A stretch of 40,249 nt of DNA from assembly GCA_013288905.1 (NCBI GenBank), contig JABDAW010000007.1, positions 283 through 40,531 on the forward strand, read 5' to 3'. The DNA comes from Bacteroidota bacterium (GTDB lineage: Bacteria > Bacteroidota > Bacteroidia > AKYH767-A > JABDAW01). A model generated the notes under the pieces. That model was not told where the DNA came from and ran no database searches. It was given only the letters and a program-made list of their open reading frames with translations. The position numbers were made by a program, and so were the translations under genes. Positions 3,255 to 30,566 of the stretch are shown here, in pieces (position 1 is the stretch's first letter; each line of letters begins with the position of its first letter).

Positions 3255-4136
3255 TTAATGAGGAGGAGCGGGTGACTCTTTTTCATAACCTATCTCCACC
3301 AAATCAAAAACAAAGCCTAAGTTCATTCGCAAAATAATTGGGAATTTTTTATTATCTGCAATTAAAAACATATCTTTAGGATTGCCATCTGACTCCACTA
3401 AAAAAGCTGGTATACTAATCTTCTTCCCGTCTTTTATCACATCATAATTCTGATATTTTATTCGTTTATAAACCTGCTCTTTACCATTTGGAGCATATTT
3501 TATTTCGCCAATATCCTTCAATGTTGAATAAACATATTGACTCATCCAAACCGCAGTTCCGTCATCCAAAGTTACATCTCCTTTGACGGTATAATTATAC
3601 TGTCTCGTTCCGTTCATCAGGGCATTCGGAGTCATGATAACCCTCCCATAAAACGAATTCTTGCTACGAAGAATAAAATCGAAGATTACCCGATCCGAAA
3701 CTTCCTTAATCATAATATTTAATCTTATAGAATCTGGTCCTTGAACAATCTTGTATTTAAGGATCATTCCATTGGTAATAGTGAGTGTGTCATCGTTAGT
3801 GTTTATATTTTTATCAATTTCCAAAGTCTCCATCTTAGCCTTTTCAGGATCAGAATCATTATAGATTATGAAGAGTTTTTTTGAGGAATATATCACTCTT
3901 AATGCCTTGCTTCCAACAATATCCGGCGTGCCTAATATCTTTTCGATGTCCTTCCTTCTCATATCAAAATTCAAGCCGTAAGGTAATGCGTCATTGAGAT
4001 GTTTGTTTTTATTATTGGTTCCATCTTTGTAATAAATAATGTCTTCCAAATTATTATTTTGGGACAGCATGATACACATCATTCCCAAATAAGAGGTTAG
4101 AAAAGTGAATGAAAATATATAGATGAACCTATTCAT
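3255..4136 (-). CDS. Exported protein of unknown function, domain order Y-X
   Basis: 293-aa protein with an N-terminal hydrophobic signal or anchor (about 5-25). I do not recognise a named family. It has two parts: Y (about 51-108: LPYGLNFDMRRKDIEKILG, then IIYNDSDPEKAKMETLEID) and X (about 118-285: TNGMILKYKI, AVWMSQYVYSTLKDIGEIK, FPIILRMNLGFVFDLVEI). Both parts occur in the neighbour at 4164-5222, but there X comes first and Y last. Y resembles short sequence-periodic modules of secreted Bacteroidota proteins (F-x-M/R-x4-EKILG). It starts 27 nt after the neighbour's stop, so the two are probably one operon. A 21-nt array lies beyond its 3' end. Confidence 0.85.
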   Translation of the reverse strand: MNRFIYIFSFTFLTSYLGMMCIMLSQNNNLEDIIYYKDGTNNKNKHLNDALPYGLNFDMRRKDIEKILGTPDIVGSKALRVIYSSKKLFIIYNDSDPEKAKMETLEIDKNINTNDDTLTITNGMILKYKIVQGPDSIRLNIMIKEVSDRVIFDFILRSKNSFYGRVIMTPNALMNGTRQYNYTVKGDVTLDDGTAVWMSQYVYSTLKDIGEIKYAPNGKEQVYKRIKYQNYDVIKDGKKISIPAFLVESDGNPKDMFLIADNKKFPIILRMNLGFVFDLVEIGYEKESPAPPH

Positions 4137-4163: not shown

Positions 4164-5222
4164 CTATTTTTTATAAAGTGTTATACTCTTTAGTTTAGCT
4201 TTTTTAGGGTCATTGCTGTTATAAATAACTATCAAGTTTTTTTCTTTATATTCAAATCCATTTGGCTCAATTCCACCTGGTCCGTTTGGAGCACCTAATA
4301 TCTTTTCAATGGCTTCTCTTTTCATATCAAATGTTATACTGAATGGCAATTCTCCTGGATATTTTGTCCAGCTATTATCTTCATCACCTTTAATATTATT
4401 ATAGATGCTTACACTTGTCAAAACATCATTCACCACCGTTGCCATATATCCGTTAGACTGGCATTTATAGACAAATGTAACACCATTTTTATCGGGTTTA
4501 TAGGTAGGGATAAAATCGCATGAATCACCTATGGGGTGTGTCATTGAATATACCTGCGGGTCATACAAAGATTTACCTGGAAGGTCAGCTAATTCACTTC
4601 CTTTGATATTAAATTGCGGTAGTATTCTTGCTACAGAATTAATCTCATAAAGCTCCATTGAGAAGCCGAAATTCATCTTCAAAATAATCGGTGTAGTCTT
4701 CGCATCCGCTATCCAGAATTTATCTTTTGAGGGATCATCAGATTCAACATACATGCAATGAAAGGTGCCTTGTTTGCCATCTATCTTGACTGGGTAATCC
4801 TGATATTCTTTCCTTACATAATGCTTCTCATTTTGATCAGGGGTCATCTTTACATCCCCATTATTTTTGAGAGAAGAGTAGATATATTGACTAACCCAAA
4901 GACAGGTTTGTTCGCTTAGTTTCTGATAGCCAGGATCGAAGAGATTGTTCTCTTTATCTGCAGTCTTCCAAGCATCCGAACTGATCTTTATTCGTCCTTG
5001 AATACATTTATCATTCAAGATCAGCCAATCAAAAGTTACCTCCGGAAAGACATCTTTTACCATCACCCACATTGTATATTTATTGTCGCCATCCTTGACA
5101 TTATATTTCAGGGTCATGCCGGGAGTTACTTTAAAATCTTGAGCATTCAAGCCCATTACCAATAGACTTAGCAGCATCATTAACATGATGCCTTTTGTAA
5201 TTTTACTTAATAGATATTTCAT
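4164..5222 (-). CDS. Exported protein of unknown function, domain order X-Y
   Basis: 352-aa protein with a clear signal peptide (residues 1-27, ending LVMGLNAQ). X spans about 31-210 (VTPGMTLKYNVKDGD, LWVSQYIYSSLKNNGDVK, TPIILKMNFGFSMELYEI). A linker of about 75 residues with Cys and aromatic residues follows. Y is at 288-352 (LPFSITFDMKREAIEKILG, IVIYNSNDPKKAKLKSITL). It is a permuted paralogue of the downstream gene and first in the pair, with a promoter-like box at 5250. Function unknown; secretion and the paired arrangement suggest a periplasmic or surface role. Confidence 0.87.
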   Translation of the reverse strand: MKYLLSKITKGIMLMMLLSLLVMGLNAQDFKVTPGMTLKYNVKDGDNKYTMWVMVKDVFPEVTFDWLILNDKCIQGRIKISSDAWKTADKENNLFDPGYQKLSEQTCLWVSQYIYSSLKNNGDVKMTPDQNEKHYVRKEYQDYPVKIDGKQGTFHCMYVESDDPSKDKFWIADAKTTPIILKMNFGFSMELYEINSVARILPQFNIKGSELADLPGKSLYDPQVYSMTHPIGDSCDFIPTYKPDKNGVTFVYKCQSNGYMATVVNDVLTSVSIYNNIKGDEDNSWTKYPGELPFSITFDMKREAIEKILGAPNGPGGIEPNGFEYKEKNLIVIYNSNDPKKAKLKSITLYKK

Positions 5223-8460: not shown

Positions 8461-11400
8461 TTAATGAGTTTGGGTATAAGAAACCGTTGCACCGGAAAGA
8501 ACCGTAACTGCAGAACCAGAGGTACTGCTTGCGAAACGAGCTATCACAGTACCAGTGCCAGAGGCAATCAAGACCCCTTCGATATTACAAATATTACCAG
8601 AGGCAGCACTTGTAGAATTAGAAGCTGTTTGTCCAAATGCCCCTGCTGAAGTTAATGAAGTAGTGGCAGCCGCTTTGGTATAAGTTATCATATAATTAAG
8701 TTGAGAAGCTGTTGCACCACCATTACCGTTAAGCGTCCATTTACTACCTACACTTGTTGCAGAAGTAGTGTAAGGAATCGTGAATCTGAAATAATAGGTA
8801 TTGCCTGCAGTAACCGGGAAGGACAAGCCAGTAATGTCGGTAACGGTGTTCAATGTTGTGGCTTGATTGGCAGTAATAGTTGTGCGAAGAGGGGCTGTAA
8901 TGCCAGCTACAGCAGATTGAACAAATGCAGTTGAGGCAGCTTGCGTGGTGTTTGTACCATTAGCAGCAGTAGGGACAGCGGGCGTTCCTGTAAAGGTGGG
9001 AGATGCAAGATTTGCCTTTGTGCTGATTGCCGTTGATACAAAAGCTGTAGTAGCAATGTTAGTGGAATTATCGCCGGAAGCAGGAGTAGGTGAAGTAGGA
9101 GTCCCTGTCAAGACTGGCGAGGCTAATGGTGCATAAGCAGTTGAAGAATAAGCATTCGTTCCAAGCGTGCCGCCTGCTCCGATATTTAAGATAGAACCAT
9201 CTGTGCCAGATAATGTCAAAGTATTATTGGAAGTGAATGTTTTGCCGCTTCCAATGGTGATTGTAGAGGCAGAGGAGGGTGTCGTGATGTTCACATTATT
9301 TATACTTGTAGCAGTAGCAGCTCCGAGGATAGGTGTCGTGAAGGTCTTGGTACCAGTGAAGGTTTGAGCTTGTTCAAGATTGGCTACTGTATTTCTTGCA
9401 GGAGTTGAGTTGGTATAAAAAATATTCGTGCCATCGAATTCAACGGAGCCTACTACCGGTGCAGTTAGGTTTGTTCCTGGAGTAAGCTTTAATGGTGCTA
9501 CCGAAACAGTACCAGCAGGCATTGTAACTGTTCCTGTGAATGTCGGAGAAGCTATGTTTGCTTTTAAGTTATTTGCAGTTGAAACAACGCCAACAGCCGC
9601 AGTAACAAAGGCATCCGTAGCAACGGCAGTAGTATTATCTCCAGGTGTTTGGGTAACTGCAATGGTTCCTGTTGGAAGCGTAGGAGCACCTGTGAATATT
9701 GGTGAATTTAATGGCGCATAAGATGTTGATGTATAAGCATTGCTGCCCAGCGTGCCACCATTACCTATGTTTAATGTGGAAGCATCAGTACCAGCAAGAG
9801 TCATGGAATTATTCACAGCAAGAGTCTTGGAAGTGGTGCCGCCGGCTACACTGAATCCTGTGGTATTAGCAGTAAGTGATATACCATTAATAGTAGTAGC
9901 TGTAGCGGCTCCAAGCACAGGCGTGGTGAAGGTTTTGATGCCTGTGAATGTTTGTGTTTGTTCTAAATTTGCTATTGTATTTCTTGATGGAGTTGAGTTG
10001 GCATAATACATATTAGTTCCATCAAATTCGACAGCACCTGAAACAGGAGAAGTAAGGTTATTACCCTGAACGAATTTTAAAGGAGCCGCAGAGGTCGAAC
10101 CTGTAGGCAGAATCACGGTTCCGGTGAATGTCGGAGAGGCAATATTTGCTTTCAGGCTATTCCCTGTAGCAACTGCAACAGTAACAAAAGCAGTCGTTGC
10201 AATATCAGTGGAATGATCACCAGGCGATTGGGTAACAGCAATTGTTCCTGAAGGAAGTGTAGGTGTTCCAGTGAATGTAGGGGAAGCTAAGTTTGCTTTT
10301 AAAACCAAAGAATCTTGTTGAATAATTGAAACTGGTTTATTTGCATCAGATGTATTATTGACATTACCCAAACCAACAGCAGAACTGTTTAATGTCTGCC
10401 ATGTTTCATCGCCTCTCCAGTATTGGGAAGTAGTGCCTTGGGCTATGGTTGGCTGTGTGGAATTTATCTGACTTTGAAGATTTTCAAGAGCTGTAAGAAC
10501 GCTGTTTCCAGAAGATAATGGAGTATTTGAACCTACTGAATACCCTGTAAGTGGAGCAGCTACTGCCCTTGCATCTGTGTAATATAAATTAGTGCCTTCA
10601 TTGATATTAGTGGTGGTTAAATTTATAATACCTTGTTGACCATTAACAGAAGTAACATCATTAGATGAAGGTGCTATTTGATAATAGCTTCCATTGTGAA
10701 TTACACTTTCCCCAACAGTAAAGTTTAGCGAACCTGACCCTAAGTTTTGCGTGCCAGCAATAGAAACAATGTATAAATATCCATTAGAACCAGTGCCATC
10801 AGAAATGGCAGGGGTATTGGTGCTTGCATCCCAGGTTCCTTTATAAACCAAGGCACCTGTTGGCAGTTGAGCCGCAGGAACTTTACCTGTATTATCTAAT
10901 GTAGCAACGCCACCACTAACCCCTTCTTGGGAAATTGCAATGTAAGTAGCATCTGTATAAGCCTTTGTTGTCAAATGTGTTGAAAGAGTAGGCGTACCAC
11001 CAATTACAGGGTTGGAAAAAGTCTTTGTACCTGCTATTGTCTGAGAAGTGCTAAGATCAACAAAGTTTTGAGTGGAAGAACCTGTTCCACCTCTTGAAAC
11101 AGGTAATGTTCCGGTCCATCCAAGCGTTAGAGAAGTATTCTGAAGTAATGCTGTGGAAGGAGAGCCGCCAAGAGTAAGAGTGACATTATTATCATTAATC
11201 GATGTAAGTGCTCCTGCTGTGGTATAAGAAGGTGCCGTAGAACTACCGGTAGCATTACCCAAGTAGGTATTTGCCCCAGCATTAGTAAGGGAATAAGACA
11301 ACGCTGGAGTAGTGCCTGGAGTAGCTACTGATGTTGTGAATAATGGAGAAAGATTACCAGAACTAAAGGAGGTAACCGTACCATTATTTACAGTATTTAA

Positions 11401-19071: not shown

Positions 19072-19536
19072 CTAAACGAATACATATGGTATAGAAAAAG
19101 GATAGAACATTCCACCAATTTCTCCAGAAGATTTTGAACAAAGGAAATAGATTTCAGAAACCCTCCCAGACGATAAACCAATCTCTGGAGAGATTCCTTG
19201 ACTTTCCCTTGAAAATCTGGAATTTTCCCTGGAAGAATCAGAATTTTCCCTGGAAAAACTGGAACTTTCCCTGGAAGAATCGGAATTTTCCCTGGAAAAA
19301 CTGGGATTTTCCCGGGAAAAATCAGAATTTTCCCTGGAAGAATTGAAATTTTCCCTGTAAAAACTGGAATTTTCCCTAGGAAATCCGGAATTTTCCAGGG
19401 AAAGTAATTTGGAAGCTCCTGACAATGAAACAAACTCTGGACAGATTCCTCCAAAAGCTGAAATGAATAACCCACCTCCCATTCCTTCCGAAGAAATTGC
19501 TGCACCTTTTGCCTGAATCATTAGAGAAAATTTCAT
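19072..19536 (-). CDS. Possible array ORF with 7-residue repeats
   Basis: A 154-aa frame: about 46 Gly/Ser-rich residues (MKFSLMIQAKGAAISSEGMG...), then heptapeptides of the type NSSFSRE / NSDSSRE translated from the 21-nt array, then a unique tail. A second minus-strand frame (19065-19505) is open through the same array and would encode heptads of the type KIPVFPG. Which, if either, is translated cannot be told from the sequence. The unique N-terminus favours the 154-aa frame slightly. Confidence 0.3.
   Translation of the reverse strand: MKFSLMIQAKGAAISSEGMGGGLFISAFGGICPEFVSLSGASKLLSLENSGFPRENSSFYRENFNSSRENSDFSRENPSFSRENSDSSRESSSFSRENSDSSRENSRFSRESQGISPEIGLSSGRVSEIYFLCSKSSGEIGGMFYPFSIPYVFV
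19196..19411. repeat. 21-nt array no. 3 (TTTTCCCTGGAAAA palindromes)
   Basis: The words TTTTCCC or CTTTCCC start at 19202, 19223, 19244, 19265, 19286, 19307, 19328, 19349, 19370 and 19391: ten units exactly 21 nt apart. Each core is a near-palindrome TTTTCC-NN-GGAAAA followed by a 7-nt variable spacer (ACTGGAA, ATCGGAA, ATCAGAA, ATTGAAA). The phase is perfect although most units differ. Confidence 0.95.
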
Positions 19537-21104: not shown

Positions 21105-23483
21105 TTAACTCCCGCAAGCCTCACATCCATCGGGATCGTCAATGCTGCAAGAAATCTGCTCCAGAGCCTTTACTTTATCCAGTTCACTTGGCTCCACATA
21201 TTCCACAATTGCCGGCTCGGCTTGCTTCTCCACCGTGAATTTGATGGCATCGGTAGCGGCTTTGGTACGGAGGTAATACATACCAGTCTTCAAGCCCTTC
21301 TTCCACGCATAAAAGTGCATCGAAGTCAGCTTGCCGAAGTTCGCATCCTGTATAAATAAATTCAACGACTGGCTCTGGCAAATGAATGCGCCACGGTCGG
21401 CAGCCATATCAATAATCACTTTTTGTTTGATCTCCCAAACCGTTTTATAAATGTCTTTTATATGCTGCGGAATCTCCGGAATGTCTTGCACAGAGCCATT
21501 TGCAGAGATGATTTTGGTCTTCAGATTATTGTTCCAGATACCCAATTTCACAAGGTCGAGCAACAGATGTTTGTTCACCACAATAAACTCCCCGCTCAAC
21601 ACACGGCGACTATAAATATTCGATGTATAAGGCTCGAAACATTCGTTGTTACCAAGAATCTGCGAAGTAGAAGCAGTCGGCATCGGAGCCAGCAGCAAGG
21701 AATTCCGCACACCATGCTTCTTCACTTCCTCCTTCAGCACATCCCACTCCCAGCGATCTGTAGGCTTCACATTCCACATGTCGAATTGGAAGATACCTTG
21801 CGACACAGGCGATCCGGCGAAGGTCGAATAAGGTCCTTCTTTAATAGCAATGTCCTTGGAAGAAGTCATCGAAGCATAATAAATCGTCTCGAATATCTCA
21901 CGATTCAGCATCCTCGCTTCCTCACTATCGAAAGGCAATTTCAACAACATAAAAGTATCCGCCAATCCCTGAACCCCAATGCCAATGGGGCGATGACGCA
22001 TGTTACTGTTGCGCGCCTCCTCGACAGGATAATAATTTACATCAATAATTTTGTTCAGATTTTTGGTAATCTGATAAGTGATATCAAACAATTTCTGATG
22101 ATCAAACTTTCCATCAATAACAAATCTCGGCAACGCAATCGAAGCCAGGTTACACACGGCAATCTCGTCTGCGGCGGTGTATTCTACGATCTCCGTACAA
22201 AGATTTGAACTCTTGATAGTCCCCAAATTCTTCTGGTTTGATTTCTCATTGCAAGCATCCTTGTAAAGCATGTATGGCGTGCCCGTCTCAATCTGACTTT
22301 CCATAATCGCAAACCATAACTCCTGCGCCTTAATCGTCTTGCGAGCCTTGCCTTCCGATTCATATTTAGTATAAAGTAGCTCGAATTCAGCACCATAACA
22401 ATCTGCCAACCCAGGGCACTCATTCGGGCAGAACAATGACCAGGTGCTATCCTCCTCAACACGCTTCATAAACAAGTCAGGAATCCAAAGCGCAAAGAAC
22501 AAATCCCTCGCCCTCAACTCTTCCTTACCATGATTCTTTTTCAATTCCAGAAACTCAAAAATATCTGCATGCCAAGGCTCCAGATAAATAGCAAAAGAAC
22601 CCTTCCGTTTGCCACCACCCTGATCAACATATCGAGCGGTATCATTGAAGACCTTCAACATCGGAACAATACCATTAGAAGTCCCATTCGTCCCACGAAT
22701 ATAAGAACCCGTAGCCCGAACATTATGAATACTCAAACCGATTCCACCAGCCGATTGAGAGATCTTAGCACAGTTCTTCAAGGTATCATAAATACCATCA
22801 ATACTATCATTCTTCATCGTCAATAAAAAGCACGAAGAAAGCTGTGGCTTGGGCGTTCCGGCATTAAATAAGGTCGGCGTGGCATGCGTAAACCAACGCT
22901 CGCTCATCATGTTATAAGTCTCGATGGCAGCATCAATATCCTCCTTATGAATACCGATAGCAACCCGCATCAACATGTGCTGTGGACGCTCAGCAACCTG
23001 CCCGTTCATCCTCAACAAATAAGACTTCTCCAAAGTCTTAAAACCAAAATAATCATAACCGAAATCACGGTCATAAATAATGGTACTATCCAACAACTCC
23101 GCATTCTTTTCGATGATACCATACACCTCTTCCGAGAGCATAGGAGCCTTCTTTCCGGTATTTGCATCAACATAAAAATACAACTCCTTCATCGTCTCCG
23201 AGAAAGATTTTTTAGTATTCTTATGAAGATTACTAATAGCGATTCTCGAAGCCAGCAGCGCGTAATCAGGATGCTTCGTAGTCAGCGAAGCAGCGATTTC
23301 TGCAGCAAGATTATCAAGGTCAGAAGTCGAAACCCCATCATAAATCCCCTCGATCACCTTCTGCGCAACGCTAATAGATTCAACATGTTCAGGATTCAAC
23401 CCATAGCAAAGCTTCTGAATCCTCGCAGTCACCTTATCAAACTTTACGGTCTCTTTTTTACCGTCTCTTTTTATTACATACAT
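21105..23483 (-). CDS. nrdA: Ribonucleoside-diphosphate reductase, alpha subunit (class I)
   Basis: 792 aa, full length. Reduces ribonucleotides to deoxyribonucleotides with NrdB. The N-terminal ATP-cone (about 1-90, [18 protein letters not shown]) implies dATP feedback control. The barrel has [20 protein letters not shown] (active-site Cys), [29 protein letters not shown] with its Asn/Cys/Glu, and the [20 protein letters not shown] loop that lies close to the radical path. The C-terminus ends in a Cys pair (DGCEACGS) that would pass electrons from thioredoxin. Normally next to nrdB in Bacteroidota, here separated from it by about 3.7 kb of accessory genes. Confidence 0.97.
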
Positions 23484-23513: not shown

Positions 23514-24704
23514 TTATAATTCTTTAAATTCATTTTCGATTTCCTCAATCGTCGGCAAACTGCTTTTAATCTCATCAGGAAGCACCTCCGTAAACTGAAA
23601 TTCACTCACCCCGATTGGCTTCACAATATCTCTCAATGCGTATTCCACAGCGATATTATTTTTATCCCTGCACAGCAAAATCCCGATGGTAGGCTTGTCA
23701 TCCTCGCCCCTCAATAAGTCATCAACCGCCGAAAGATAAAAGTTCAACTTACCTGCATATTCGGGCGCAAATTTCTTATTCTTCAACTCAATTACCACAT
23801 AACATTTCAGCTTGATATTATAAAACAACAAATCAATTTTATAATCCTCATCAGCAATTTCAATAGCATATTGCCGCCCCACAAAAGCAAATCCCTTTCC
23901 CAATTCCAACAAAAACTTAGTGATATGCTGAACCATCTGATTCTCGATATCCTTTTCCTTAGCCTCCGAAGTCAGCATCATAAAATCAAAAATATATGGA
24001 TCCTTCAAAGTTTGTTGCGCCAAATCAGATTGCGAATCGGGCAATGTCGTCTTAAAATTGGTAACAGATTTCCCCTGTCGTTGATACAGTGCAGTCTTTA
24101 TCTGCAAAGCCAAAACATCCCTGCTCCAACCATTCTCAATAGTTTGCTGAATATAAAAAATAGCTTCTTCAATATCTTTTGCCTTACTGAATATCAAAAT
24201 GTTCTGTCCCCAAGGAATTTTCGCAACAAACTGTTGCGTAAATGGAATCGGAGTTATTTTTGACTCCTCGGATAAAAAGCCAACAGCCTGTTGGCTTATT
24301 TCAGTAACCAATGTTTGGGCATTTTCTAATTGTGCAACAGGCTGTTGCACAATTGCATTATTCTTATTTTCTACATTTTCCAATTGGGCAACAGGCTGTT
24401 GCCCAATTACCAAGGGCTGATTATAAAATAAATAGAAGGCTTGAATGTATTTCAGGTTACTTATTGAAAACCCTCCCAGTTCAGGAAACTCCTCCTTCAA
24501 ATCAACACTCAATTGATTAATCAATCCAGCACCCCAATTTGTTTCTTGTTGCTTTTCCGAAATCATCTTCCCCAACTCCCAATAAAACAAAATAAGTTCA
24601 GCATTAGCAGCCAAAGCAGCCTTCACTTGACTCCCCCTGACCTTAGATTTTATATCCGAAAGCCAATCCTTATAACCAATATCAAACTTATTCAAACTCT
24701 CCAT
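23514..24704 (-). CDS. DUF1016 / PDDEXK nuclease-domain protein (YhcG-like)
   Basis: 396 aa. The N-terminal DUF1016 domain (about 10-95: ALAANAELILFYWELGKMIS, WGAGLINQLSVDLKEEFPEL) and a C-terminal PDDEXK nuclease fold (about 240-385) with IDLLFYN (Asp291), VVIELK (Glu306, Lys308) and IGILLCRDKNN. PDDEXK proteins of this type occur with mobile and defence genes; the biochemical role is unsettled. The linker (about 97-160) is unusual: it repeats QQPVAQLEN-type words and is encoded by four regularly spaced palindromes. Start at ATG 24704, 3 nt after the dinD stop, so the two are likely cotranscribed. Confidence 0.9.
   Translation of the reverse strand: MESLNKFDIGYKDWLSDIKSKVRGSQVKAALAANAELILFYWELGKMISEKQQETNWGAGLINQLSVDLKEEFPELGGFSISNLKYIQAFYLFYNQPLVIGQQPVAQLENVENKNNAIVQQPVAQLENAQTLVTEISQQAVGFLSEESKITPIPFTQQFVAKIPWGQNILIFSKAKDIEEAIFYIQQTIENGWSRDVLALQIKTALYQRQGKSVTNFKTTLPDSQSDLAQQTLKDPYIFDFMMLTSEAKEKDIENQMVQHITKFLLELGKGFAFVGRQYAIEIADEDYKIDLLFYNIKLKCYVVIELKNKKFAPEYAGKLNFYLSAVDDLLRGEDDKPTIGILLCRDKNNIAVEYALRDIVKPIGVSEFQFTEVLPDEIKSSLPTIEEIENEFKEL
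24222..24407. repeat. Four in-frame palindromes inside the DUF1016 gene
   Basis: Palindromes centred at 24230, 24287, 24341 and 24395, all built on GCAACAG-N-CTGTTGC or a variant. The two at 24328-24354 and 24382-24408 have perfect 13-bp arms (AATTGTGCAACAG; AATTGGGCAACAG); the one at 24278-24296 has 9-bp arms. Centres are 57, 54 and 54 nt apart, all multiples of three, so the frame is kept. The arms differ between copies but stay matched within each copy. Confidence 0.92.
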
Positions 24705-24707
24705 TTC

Positions 24708-25559
24708 TTATTTCGTTTTACCCTTCACTTTCTTCACACCCTTCAACACCTCCTTCTCCTCACTCACCAATTTCCTTTGCAATTTCTTCACATCATCAGC
24801 CCCAGGCAATGCTTCGGGTTTCACGCCCCTGTCAATAAGCATTTTTCGCACCGCTTTATTATTATCAACATGCTCTGTCGAAATTTGTTCATCACCTTTC
24901 AAATCTTTCTCAACAACATTATGGCTCGTCAATTCAGTAGCAAAATCTTTAGCCTTGATGGTAAGAGTTGGCAAGAAATCAGCAAGAGGTCTGTTACCTG
25001 GAATCATCAATTTCCGTTTCATTTCATTAGTCGTAAAGCCGCCAAACAAAGCCTTATCGCCCTCCGACCTGATGATTGCAAAACTCTTTTCATCCACCCC
25101 TCTTTCATAAATAATTGCAGAAAGTTTCTTCTCGCTCTTCGACAGTTTCTCCCTTGCAGTAACCCGCGCAACATCAAGCAATCGTTGCTCAATAATTTCC
25201 TGTTTTCGAGTCTGCACAGCAAAATAAGTCTGTGCAAAAGCAACTTCATGTTTACCTGGGTCTCCATTTTGAGCCACCAAATAACAAGCATATCTTGTAA
25301 GCGCAATATCCTCAATATCTCTATGACCACCTTTACCAATTTCGATCATCTTGTTGGCTTCAACAAAATGATCAGAAACCGCCTCACCACTGTTAATGCA
25401 TGCCTCTTTAGCCTTATCAATTACCTTCAAAAAATTCCTCCAATCAGCATAATCAAATACTCCCTGCAACTCCCTCGCACTCCAGCATTCCGTACCCTCA
25501 AACACATAACATGCCTGCTCAAACTTCTCAAATAATTCCGTTATATTTTCTTTTTTCAT
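24708..25559 (-). CDS. dinD: DNA-damage-inducible protein D homologue
   Basis: 283 aa from the ATG at 25559; an in-frame TTG six bases upstream is less likely. A BRO-N-like domain (about 12-115: FEGTECWSARELQGVFDYAD ... HRDIEDIALTRYACYLVAQN, DPGKHEVAFAQTYFAVQTRK) leads to the rest of DinD, with KALFGGFTTNEMKRKL and NRPLADFLPTLTIKAKDFAT. In E. coli DinD is LexA-regulated and acts on RecA filaments. It is followed at once by the DUF1016 nuclease and preceded by a broken HEPN gene, in a stretch that looks like a small accessory island inside the nrd locus. Confidence 0.93.
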   Translation of the reverse strand: MKKENITELFEKFEQACYVFEGTECWSARELQGVFDYADWRNFLKVIDKAKEACINSGEAVSDHFVEANKMIEIGKGGHRDIEDIALTRYACYLVAQNGDPGKHEVAFAQTYFAVQTRKQEIIEQRLLDVARVTAREKLSKSEKKLSAIIYERGVDEKSFAIIRSEGDKALFGGFTTNEMKRKLMIPGNRPLADFLPTLTIKAKDFATELTSHNVVEKDLKGDEQISTEHVDNNKAVRKMLIDRGVKPEALPGADDVKKLQRKLVSEEKEVLKGVKKVKGKTK

Positions 25560-25561
25560 TA

Positions 25562-25675
25562 TCAATTCCCTTTTACAAATTTCCCTCGTGCGCTCGTCTG
25601 GATTTGTAATCCCGACCCCTCCATATCATCCGCAGATTTAAGCCAATGCTTTATATGTTCCTCTTTGGTCATCAT
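25562..25675 (-). pseudogene. N-terminal remnant of a HEPN-domain gene
   Basis: A 37-aa frame starting MMTKEEHIKHWLKSADDMEG, matching the usual first residues of Bacteroidota HEPN-domain proteins (MTKEEHIxxWLxSAExD). After residue 18 the sequence departs from the family and soon ends in TGA, overlapping the alternative TTG start of dinD. Normal HEPN proteins are about 120-140 aa, so this is truncated. The departure coincides with a 21-nt imperfect palindrome (25596-25616). No partner nucleotidyltransferase gene is present. Confidence 0.6.
25596..25616. repeat. Palindrome at the break of the HEPN gene
   Basis: Nine-base arms with one mismatch and a 3-nt loop, built on GGATT-ACA-AATCC on the minus strand and flanked by GTC/GAC. 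It lies at the point where the HEPN reading frame leaves the family consensus. Confidence 0.6.
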
Positions 25676-25678
25676 GTT

Positions 25679-26614
25679 TTAATTAACAGATTTAGGTTTA
25701 AAAGGATCATCCGAAACTCTCAAATGAGTAATGTGTTCTCGCAGTGGTGTAATTTCTTCCCATAAAATATCACCATGACCATTTAAGTCAGCTGTGCAAT
25801 CCCATACAATATCATAAAACAAACCATTCCCTTGAATTTTTTCGATCTTACCTCTATCTGCTTTTTTAGGAATTAATAAGTCTTTTGCATAATCAGGTTT
25901 AAGTGCCCAATTTGAATTTCCAATTCCTGATGAAGCTGTTGGGTAAATAATACAATTTGATGGATTTTTTTCAAAACTTAATTGTGACCATGCAATCGTT
26001 GAATTATATAAAAAGTCATTGTTTCTTCCCTTAACAATTAATTGGAATTCCCTTGCAATAAATTCATCAACAATTTTAATGTTGTTTAGAGCAGGATTTG
26101 AAATCAAACTACGGTAGTGATTTTTTATAATCTCTCTCAATGTGTTATCATTTTTGTATAACGATTCTATACCTACCATGCTAACTGGAGAAATATTTAT
26201 TTTGCTATCAAGCTCATAAGTTATAATTGTAATATATTCATTCTCTATCGGGTTTAATTCAACAATACTGGTTATAGGATGATTGGAACAATATAATATT
26301 CTTTCTCCTTTATCATTACATCTACCCTTTTTTGTTGCTTCAATTGGAGGTGCCCATAAATTATCAGTGTGCATAAAATAATCAACAGGATTACCATAAG
26401 CATCTTTATTAATTCTCGCTCTATATAATCCGCCTGGGTTTATTTGGTATCTTATTGGAACATATCCTTGAACAAATGATAAAATTGCCTCTTTACATCC
26501 TTTAATACCATATTTGATTTTAAAATCAGGACTTAATACCCATAAAAGTTGACTAATAAGATCCTCCTTATTTTTAGTATCTAAAAACATTTTTTTATCT
26601 AATAAATTAAGCAT
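25679..26614 (-). CDS. RES-domain protein
   Basis: 311 aa. RES family: NAD+-consuming toxins named for conserved Arg, Glu and Ser. Visible are GLYRARINK (Arg65/67), LWAPPIEATKKGRCNDKGER with the GRxN turn, ILYCSNHPITSIVEL (Glu119) and IIYPTASSGIGNSNWALKP (Ser228/229). RES toxins are usually paired with an Xre-type antitoxin; none is adjacent here, and the protein is longer than typical toxin members, so it may be a solitary RES enzyme. Start ATG 26614; an alternative ATG at 26590 is possible. An array ORF overlaps its start by 16 nt. Confidence 0.85.
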   Translation of the reverse strand: MLNLLDKKMFLDTKNKEDLISQLLWVLSPDFKIKYGIKGCKEAILSFVQGYVPIRYQINPGGLYRARINKDAYGNPVDYFMHTDNLWAPPIEATKKGRCNDKGERILYCSNHPITSIVELNPIENEYITIITYELDSKINISPVSMVGIESLYKNDNTLREIIKNHYRSLISNPALNNIKIVDEFIAREFQLIVKGRNNDFLYNSTIAWSQLSFEKNPSNCIIYPTASSGIGNSNWALKPDYAKDLLIPKKADRGKIEKIQGNGLFYDIVWDCTADLNGHGDILWEEITPLREHITHLRVSDDPFKPKSVN

Positions 26615-27102
26615 GTGTAATTAATAAAATCTAAGCTCCCAAAAGCACAAAATCCCCCTTGAATAAGATACCCCTTGCCAAAATCCACTCCCATTACCCT
26701 CCTGCCAAGTAGAATTCTATTAATCAAAAAAGCTATGCTCTTGTTTATGCTCACTATGGTCTTGTTTATTCGAGGGTATGACTTGTTTATCCTTACTAAG
26801 GACTTGTTTATGCTTACTGATGCCTTGTTTTTTCGAGGGTATGGCTTATTTATGCTTACCGAGGTCTTGTTTATGACTACTAAGACCTTGTTTTTGGAGG
26901 GGTATGGCTTATTTATGCTTACTAAGGTCTTGTTTATGACTACTAAGGACTTGTTTATGCTTACTGAGGTCTTGCCAATGGTCTTTTTAATGATACCGAA
27001 ACCCGCTCCCTGTATAGCTCCAAGCCCTAAAAGTGTGTTTTTGAAGAAAATCACACCACCCCCTCCAATTCGCATCCTAATTTCCTCAAATCGTGTTCTC
27101 AT
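26599..27102 (-). CDS. Possible array ORF with 7-residue repeats
   Basis: 167-aa frame whose first 45 residues are unique and Gly/hydrophobic-rich (GGGGVIFFKNTLLGLGAIQG). Heptads of the type VSINKSL / VVINKTL / SINKPYP follow, translated from the 21-nt array, then a unique tail that ends 16 nt inside the RES gene start. The overlap with a downstream start and the unique ends make translation more plausible than for the other arrays, but the plus strand is also open over most of it. No known domain. Confidence 0.4.
   Translation of the reverse strand: MRTRFEEIRMRIGGGGVIFFKNTLLGLGAIQGAGFGIIKKTIGKTSVSINKSLVVINKTLVSINKPYPSKNKVLVVINKTSVSINKPYPRKNKASVSINKSLVRINKSYPRINKTIVSINKSIAFLINRILLGRRVMGVDFGKGYLIQGGFCAFGSLDFINYTCLIY
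26740..26991. repeat. 21-nt array no. 4 (CTTGTTTATG words)
   Basis: Twelve units exactly 21 nt apart begin at 26740, 26761, 26782, 26803, 26824, 26845, 26866, 26887, 26908, 26929, 26950 and 26971. Each has a conserved front (CTTGTTTATG) and a variable back. A GGGTATG back recurs every third unit (26761, 26824, 26887), a 63-nt higher-order repeat. No indel breaks the phase. Confidence 0.97.
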
Positions 27103-27148: not shown

Positions 27149-28114
27149 TCAAAAATCCTCATCCATCTTGAAGCTATGCTGATCCTTAGAAGACATCACC
27201 CCAGCCTTCTGGTACTCCCCAACACGTTTCTCAAAGAAATTAGTCTTCCCCTGCAACGAAATCAATTCCATAAAATCAAAAGGATTCGAAACATTATAAA
27301 TCTTCTTCTGATCCAAAGCAACGAGCAATCTGTCAGCCACAAATTCAATATATTGAGACATCATCTTAGCATTCATCCCAATCAAATCAACTGGCAAGGC
27401 AGTGCTCACAAACTCCTGCTCAATCTTCACAGCATCAGCAATCATCCCAACAACAACTTCCTTATCCAATTTGTTCTCCAGCATTCCATAAAGCAGACAA
27501 GCAAAGTCGCAATGCAGACCTTCATCGCGAGAGATGAGTTCATTAGAGAAACTCAAGCCAGGCATCAAGCCCCTCTTCTTCAACCAAAAGATAGAGCAGA
27601 AGCTACCAGAGAAGAATATCCCTTCCACTGCAGCAAACGCAATCAACCTTTCCGCAAAGCTGCCTTTACTTATCCAGCGCAAAGCCCACTCCGCCTTCTT
27701 CTTCACACAAGGAACCGTTTCAATAGCATTAAAAAGACGATTCTTTTCCTGCGTATCCTTGATATAAGTATCTATTAATAAGGAATAAGTTTCAGAATGA
27801 ATATTCTCCATCATTATCTGAAATCCATAGAAGCAACGTGCCTCTGGAAGCTGAACTTCCTTCATGAAATTGACAGCCAGATTTTCATTCACGATACCAT
27901 CACTCGCTGCGAAGAACGCAAGTACATTCGTAATGAAATACCGTTCGCCATCATTCATTCTATCCCAGTCTTTTTGGTCTTGCGAAAGATCCACTTCCTC
28001 TGCCGTCCAGAAGCTTGCCTCATGCTTTTTATACATCTCCCAAATCTTTGGGTACTTAATTGGAAAGAGTACGAATCGCTCTTTATTGTCTTCTAAAAGG
28101 ACTTCTGTTTTCAT
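27149..28114 (-). CDS. nrdB: Ribonucleoside-diphosphate reductase, beta subunit (class I)
   Basis: 321 aa, carries the metal cofactor and the radical used by NrdA. Ligand and radical motifs are visible: [13 protein letters not shown] (Glu, His and the radical-position Tyr), [30 protein letters not shown] (Glu and His) and the N-terminal [15 protein letters not shown] with the first carboxylate. The C-terminal tail ([11 protein letters not shown]) is the usual peptide that docks on the alpha subunit. The gene has a good promoter at 28187-28217 and is the first of the region; the accessory genes and nrdA follow in the same orientation. Confidence 0.97.
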
Positions 28115-30365: not shown

Positions 30366-30430
30366 TATTATAAAATTTTAATTCAAAATATTCCCAATAA
30401 AAACTTCGCATCTGCCAAAAAAGATCAAAA

Positions 30431-30556
30431 ATAGCGTAACCATCCCAAAGCTTTGCGTAACATTCCTCAAAGATAGCGTAACATTGTTGATAAATAGCGT
30501 AACAAGGTTAAAGAATAGAGTAACATTTATCGAAAATAGCGTAACAAAGTTGAAGA
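30431..30556. repeat. 21-nt array no. 5 (ATAGCGTAAC words)
   Basis: Six units exactly 21 nt apart, GCGTAAC or GAGTAAC at 30434, 30455, 30476, 30497, 30518 and 30539. The first 10 nt (ATAGCGTAAC) are conserved and the next 11 vary. A minus-strand frame of 62 codons (30378-30566) is open through it and begins immediately after the TAA of the upstream gene, encoding heptads of the type NVTLFFN; I do not count it as a proven gene. Confidence 0.93.
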
Positions 30557-30566
30557 AAACAGTCAT

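Follow-up and report, generated by a model that had tools for sequence, protein, structure and literature searches.

Palindromes in the linker of DUF1016/YhcG nuclease genes as predicted cognate DNA sites of the encoded proteins

The parS site of B. subtilis lies inside spo0J. ParB sites can also lie inside genes in Caulobacter (PMC5815017). Dimers of ParB and Noc read a palindrome through the recognition helix of a helix-turn-helix motif and through further helices, and their specificity, which is set by the recognition helix together with position 201, can be changed by a few residues (PMC7383237). C.Kpn2I has a proven roadblock site inside its own ORF (PMC6237814). Rickettsia palindromic elements are selfish inserts of approximately 100–150 nt that are scattered over many genes (PMC4316617). 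The DUF1016/YhcG proteins are common and still uncharacterised. In E. coli, deletion of yhcG is synthetically lethal with hypomorphs of dnaB, dnaN, and parE, and YhcG has been associated with HsdMRS, McrABC, integrases, and PinE (PMC2672614). Our literature search retrieved no paper describing palindromes in DUF1016 genes.

We analysed a stretch of 40,249 nucleotides from a Bacteroidota bacterium, hereafter called the window, which contains a DUF1016/YhcG gene assigned to the PADLOC candidate defence family PDC-S02. Pfam detected DUF1016_N and YhcG_C in its product with 128.2 and 219.9 bits, respectively (cut-offs 32.8 and 32.5). Together with a Bro-N gene (PADLOC PDC-S13), it occupies window positions 23514–25565, between genes that, judged from their translations, appear to encode the large (21105–23483) and small (27149–28114) subunits of ribonucleotide reductase. 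A tandem repeat with periods of 21/42/63 bp (26739–26974) lies in ORF 26599–27102 and encodes SINKPYPRKNK-like repeats; a Pfam search with this ORF gave no match. Further arrays with 21- and 42-bp periods are located at 19203–19403 and 30425–30557. The relevant features of the DUF1016/YhcG gene are the following:

23514..24704, minus strand: DUF1016/YhcG gene, 396 aa, with DUF1016_N (PF17761) and the YhcG_C PDDEXK nuclease (PF06250)
24435..24473, minus strand: predicted DNA-reading helix, codons 78–90, GFSISNLKYIQAF (AlphaFold helix 81–94; covariation with d7, d9, and d5, see below)
24382..24408, centre 24395, minus strand: palindrome copy 1 in gene order, AATTGGGCAACAGCCTGTTGCCCAATT, 13-bp arms
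24328..24354, centre 24341, minus strand: palindrome copy 2, AATTGTGCAACAGCCTGTTGCACAATT, 13-bp arms
24277..24297, centre 24287, minus strand: palindrome copy 3, AAGCCAACAGGCTGTTGGCTT, 10-bp arms, one central base
24222..24238, centre 24230, minus strand: palindrome copy 4, CGCAACAGTTTGTTGCG, 7-bp arms, three central bases
23553..24017, minus strand: YhcG_C PDDEXK nuclease domain, residues 230–384 (Pfam; fold match to EndoMS/NucS, Z 11.2)

A first-pass annotation of the window had reported four evenly spaced palindromes in this gene, with up to 13 perfect pairs per arm. Their centres, with steps of 57, 54, and 54 bp, proved exact, and the 13 pairs are reached at 24341 and 24395, with 10 at 24287 and 7 at 24230. 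The reported QQPVAQLEN-type repeats are indeed encoded by the copies, on the minus strand and between DUF1016_N and YhcG_C. The key fact is that, as described, the arms are unlike between copies and match within each copy, that is, pairing is kept while the sequence changes. Copy 4 is the weakest of the four; its position, directly ahead of an IPWG[HQ]N motif, corresponds to that of the palindrome in single-copy homologues. The extra copies look like local duplications. The genome encodes another DUF1016 protein, whose gene contains three palindromes at 54-bp intervals; their arms are unlike those of the window gene. Throughout the assembly (58.7% complete), the exact core CAACAGNCTGTTG was found three times, always in the window DUF1016 gene, and a reversed control pattern gave no match. 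A search of other genes for this core, as proposed in the annotation, was thus negative in the own assembly; across 395 genomes of the phylum it did find matches in unrelated genes, but these were isolated, QQAVA-type coding sequences. A dispersed mobile hairpin was rejected on these grounds.

The palindrome is a family-wide feature. At a threshold of at least 9 of 12 pairs, it was found in the same linker in 218 of 230 DUF1016 genes, which represent at least six phyla, with arms that differ widely and are nevertheless self-complementary (for example, TTGTGCAGCAGGCTGCTGCACAA, CTCTCAGCACTGCTGAGAG, GTGACGCATTGCGTCAC, and AATTGCGTCCGCACTGCGGACGCAATT). Its usual centre lies four codons before an [IL][PS]W motif, and the codon phase is identical in 202 of the 210 odd-length palindromes of this set. 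At least 11 of 12 Watson–Crick pairs were present in the corresponding 60-nt stretch of 111 of the 230 genes, compared to 0 of 1265 control stretches from the same genes. Palindrome-bearing homologues belong to Bacteroidota, Cyanobacteria, Acidobacteriota, Chlamydiae, Pseudomonadota, Bacillota, and Dependentiae. As one palindrome occupies the same place in homologues of at least six phyla, we conclude that it is ancestral in the DUF1016 family. Multiple copies, two to four per gene, are found in several genes of Bacteroidota and enterobacteria. An explanation of the 54-bp spacing by helical phasing was discarded, since other genes space their copies by, for example, 36, 39, 45, or 72 bp. The same applies to a promoter operator, because flanking copies are rare: sites resembling the in-gene site flank the gene in six cases among approximately 230 genes, four of them from E. 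coli.

DUF1016/YhcG matches above the cut-off were present in 85 of 247 genomes of the phylum Bacteroidota and in most E. coli, and few relatives were found in the viral contigs searched. In one Bacteroidota genus (L077, L078, L079, and L084), N-terminal DUF1016 fragments stand in tandem with fuller genes. These fragments consist of helix and palindrome followed by a common ending such as MSRxxGVGDE, and they resemble spare cassettes or decayed duplicates. In two further genomes, the exact core palindrome occurs with similar flanks where no ORF of at least 90 aa is present (L080, position 7512; L088, position 7578), possibly as a decayed DUF1016 gene.

To quantify the pairing, the palindrome centre was set by the protein motif and not by score, although some palindromes in other analyses were picked by score. 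At this fixed offset, 102 non-redundant genes had on average 8.2 Watson–Crick pairs out of 14, compared to 5.25 in synonymous shuffles (Z 22). All four pair types were found at most arm positions. Chlamydial and related genes (L028, L029, and L031) lack one central base, which shifts the translation frame of the left arm and leaves the palindrome intact. Among the mismatches in imperfect pairs, we counted 22 G·T and 47 A·C. G·T is therefore not in excess over A·C, which is the opposite of what would be expected for a sense-RNA hairpin. Given the excess over synonymous shuffles and the lack of preference for G·T, the constraint looks like one on DNA symmetry rather than on protein or RNA. The first-pass annotation had named, as evidence against its own reading, the same palindromes at conserved positions in all homologues as ordinary coding sequence. 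Their position is in fact conserved, but they are not ordinary coding sequence, as the synonymous null is exceeded.

We then related the palindrome to the protein. Helix positions are numbered from the G of the conserved G-F-S-x-x-N-L-x-x-M, with +4, +7, and +8 as in G-F-S-x-[+4]-N-L-[+7]-[+8]; in the window protein, these are S82, K85, and Y86. Bases of the left arm are designated d and counted outward from the palindrome centre. Mutual information was calculated for 317 protein columns in 218 genes (effective number approximately 119). Columns whose codons form part of the palindrome show trivial correlations and were excluded. Among d5–d9, the top columns for d5, d7, and d9 were then +8, +4, and +7, respectively, which lie on one helix face. 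With Arg at +4, d7 is G in 89 of 95 cases, and G is rare with other residues; Lys goes with C (9 of 9) and Ser with T or C. With Arg at +8, d5 is C in 30 of 30 cases, and with Tyr, Asn, or Gln it is mostly A. At paired sites, Lys, Trp, and Gly at +7 go with G (53 of 56), C (24 of 27), and T (8 of 8) at d9.

Where relatives differ in the residue, the base switches accordingly in 68 of 76 disjoint pairs for +4, 31 of 31 for +8, and 33 of 45 for +7, with one, zero, and three contrary cases, respectively; the pairs reach 60% divergence, so that phylogeny is only partly removed, least for the d1–d3 signals. Taken together, the sequences, which come from at least six phyla, suggest a partial amino-acid-to-base code in which +4, +7, and +8 predict d7, d9, and d5. 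The base at d7 fits the +4 residue in 153 of 159 single-copy genes. In multi-copy genes, it fits in 28 of 31 first copies and in only 19 of 31 last copies; thus, some copies are not cognate to the protein as it is now. Among the exceptions is the window gene, in which S82 predicts C or T at d7 and copies 1, 2, and 4 have G; copy 3 (d7 = C) is the only one that fits. In multi-copy genes, a point noted at window positions 24222–24408, d7 of copies farther from the helix is often unfit for the gene's own helix, as if these copies carried leftovers of earlier specificities.

The window protein (pLDDT 78.6) and a second family member, L009 (79.5), were modelled with AlphaFold. In both models, the reading helix is the second one of a helix-turn-helix motif; the linker encoded by the palindromes is disordered in the window protein. 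Among the VIA-align matches listed, those confined to the N-domain were all ParB, Noc, or Spo0J for both models, and the few that span both domains fitted poorly. The best N-domain values among these matches were Z 10.0 (Noc) and 9.7 (ParB) for the window protein and 9.3 (Noc) and 9.1 (Noc-NBS) for L009, where Z 8–10 is moderate for a helical domain. The C-domain matched EndoMS/NucS, other PDDEXK nucleases, and Holliday junction resolvases among the entries listed. These models suggest that DUF1016/YhcG consists of a ParB/Noc-like DNA-binding domain fused to a predicted PDDEXK nuclease. The ParB N-terminal CTP-binding domain was absent in a Pfam scan, and the N-terminus is a long helix in the model.

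At the sequence level, the relation to ParB is weak and points in the same direction as the structure. Two DUF1016 genes matched HTH_ParB (PF17762) below the cut-off (E 3.7e-4 and 5.3e-4), as did one of 46 genes in a further sample (E 0.027), and a search of PDB sequences with the DUF1016 protein retrieved no relative. The hhalign comparison of DUF1016 with ParB was likewise weak (probability 17%, P 0.0014). It sets the DUF1016 residue before a His against the glycine of the ParB GHA motif, which we take to be position 201 of ParB/Noc. This DUF1016 residue covaries with d1–d3, a signal that closely follows subfamilies.

We consider it probable that each DUF1016 gene holds the cognate DNA site of its own protein and that this site co-evolves with the protein's specificity, because the palindrome is conserved in place, is constrained at the DNA level, and has bases that co-evolve with three helix residues. 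The site would be a palindrome of approximately 25–29 bp within the coding sequence of the flexible linker, shortly downstream of where the reading helix is encoded. The DUF1016/YhcG protein would read DNA, probably as a dimer, and would bind its own gene as a homodimer; we infer dimeric binding from the two-fold symmetry of the palindrome and the ParB/Noc fold. Such binding may serve autoregulation, recombination, or homing. By analogy with C.Kpn2I, we tentatively propose that the protein, once bound, forms an intragenic roadblock to transcription and thereby limits the dose of a dangerous nuclease, although a roadblock by repeated sites would be an odd arrangement. With site and reader in one cassette, specificity could change without loss of control. 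Rather less likely, a sequence-specific nuclease and its recognition site may form one exchangeable cassette throughout the family; recombination at the site would then swap reader and site as a unit, and the two would diversify jointly.

In E. coli, yhcG contains three palindromes in K-12, spaced by 39 bp, a single one in O157, and two in O102. The K-12 and O102 genes are 97–99% identical at both ends, compared to approximately 60% in the helix stretch. From K-12 to O102, +4 changes from K to R and d7 of site 1 from C to G (half-sites CGCCAGAC for K-12 site 1 and GTGCAGAC for O102). Helix and palindromes are swapped together, as a single unit, between alleles. Strains AVS0093 and A32, which are devoid of yhcG, have a perfect palindrome in the 67-bp gltD–nanQ gap (L339 and L340, approximately 9001–9030) whose sequence matches site 1 of O157/B yhcG exactly across 27 bp. 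The gltF–yhcG insert of K-12 has a palindrome on each side, one after gltD and one shortly after the yhcG stop codon. Two independent insertion-associated truncations of yhcG, one with an IS1 copy and one with another insertion, break at the edge of palindrome 3:

L191, approximately 4380–4420, and L192, approximately 3990–4010: truncation breakpoints at palindrome 3

The block exchange, the palindromes at the vacant locus and beside the insert, and the truncations would fit a homing-like or recombination-directing nuclease, in which YhcG acts at the palindrome and promotes gene conversion or insertion. Helix and site would then spread together, and the in-gene copies would be landing or exchange sites. 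The later copies of other specificities, as if from earlier cassettes, and a nuclease fold near EndoMS and Holliday junction resolvases point in the same direction. However, the flanking sites are rare outside E. coli (see the six cases above), an intact in-gene site would expose the gene to its own nuclease, and the gltD–nanQ palindrome may represent a bidirectional terminator or a scar. We therefore regard this explanation as unlikely.

An mRNA hairpin, formed in the transcript and governing its translation or stability, or autoregulation through RNA binding, is very improbable. The long stems, small loops, and often unpaired central bases would suit it, but G·U should then be tolerated over A·C, contrary to the 22 and 47 mismatches counted. 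Moreover, E. coli has matching sites outside the coding region, and the helix-to-base correlations suit a homodimer reading the DNA major groove. Slightly less probable still is an origin at the protein or mutational level, that is, selection for QQxVAQ-type peptides or template-switching correction of quasi-palindromes without function. The repeats do encode a disordered linker, in which many sequences may be allowed; nevertheless, the synonymous null is exceeded (Z 22), the palindrome outlasts the frame change of the left arm, and no correlation would be predicted with helix residues encoded approximately 20 codons upstream. The hairpin inserting into genes that the first-pass annotation had envisaged, a selfish element of the Rickettsia type, can practically be dismissed, since the palindromes, albeit in-frame and repeated within one gene, recur at the corresponding position of homologues in at least six phyla and their core is absent elsewhere in the genome.

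If the palindromes are cognate sites, they provide a predicted DNA target for each member of this family, and they also yield a partial amino-acid-to-base code and the structural class of the DNA-binding domain from computation alone. Since each gene supplies both the reader and its site, the family represents a natural data set of protein–DNA co-evolution. It is also a strong example, spanning phyla, of coding sequence that is constrained at the DNA level. The cognate-site reading is simple to test in E. coli. Should the exchangeable cassette prove true, DUF1016 would be a self-targeting, specificity-shuffling nuclease gene.

With ParB/Noc and their parS/NBS sites, DUF1016 shares the predicted fold of the DNA-binding domain (Z 7–10 among the matches listed), with a weakly detectable sequence relation. 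Unlike ParB/Noc, it has a predicted PDDEXK nuclease and no CTPase domain detected by Pfam, and practically all family members carry the site in their own gene, with which it co-evolves. In C.Kpn2I, as predicted for DUF1016, the coding region contains a site for the encoded protein, and what is controlled is a nuclease system (PMC6237814). However, C.Kpn2I itself is only a small regulator, whereas in DUF1016 the nuclease itself would be the reader, and the sites are mid-gene, often repeated, and diversified in specificity across phyla. Homing endonucleases are likewise nucleases with a long, rare site, and the vacant E. coli locus has an identical site; in DUF1016, by contrast, the site is intact within the nuclease gene (218 of 230), and the vacant-site pattern is not general. 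Rickettsia palindromic elements also lie within ORFs and keep the frame, whereas the DUF1016 palindrome is short, fixed in position, and family-specific.
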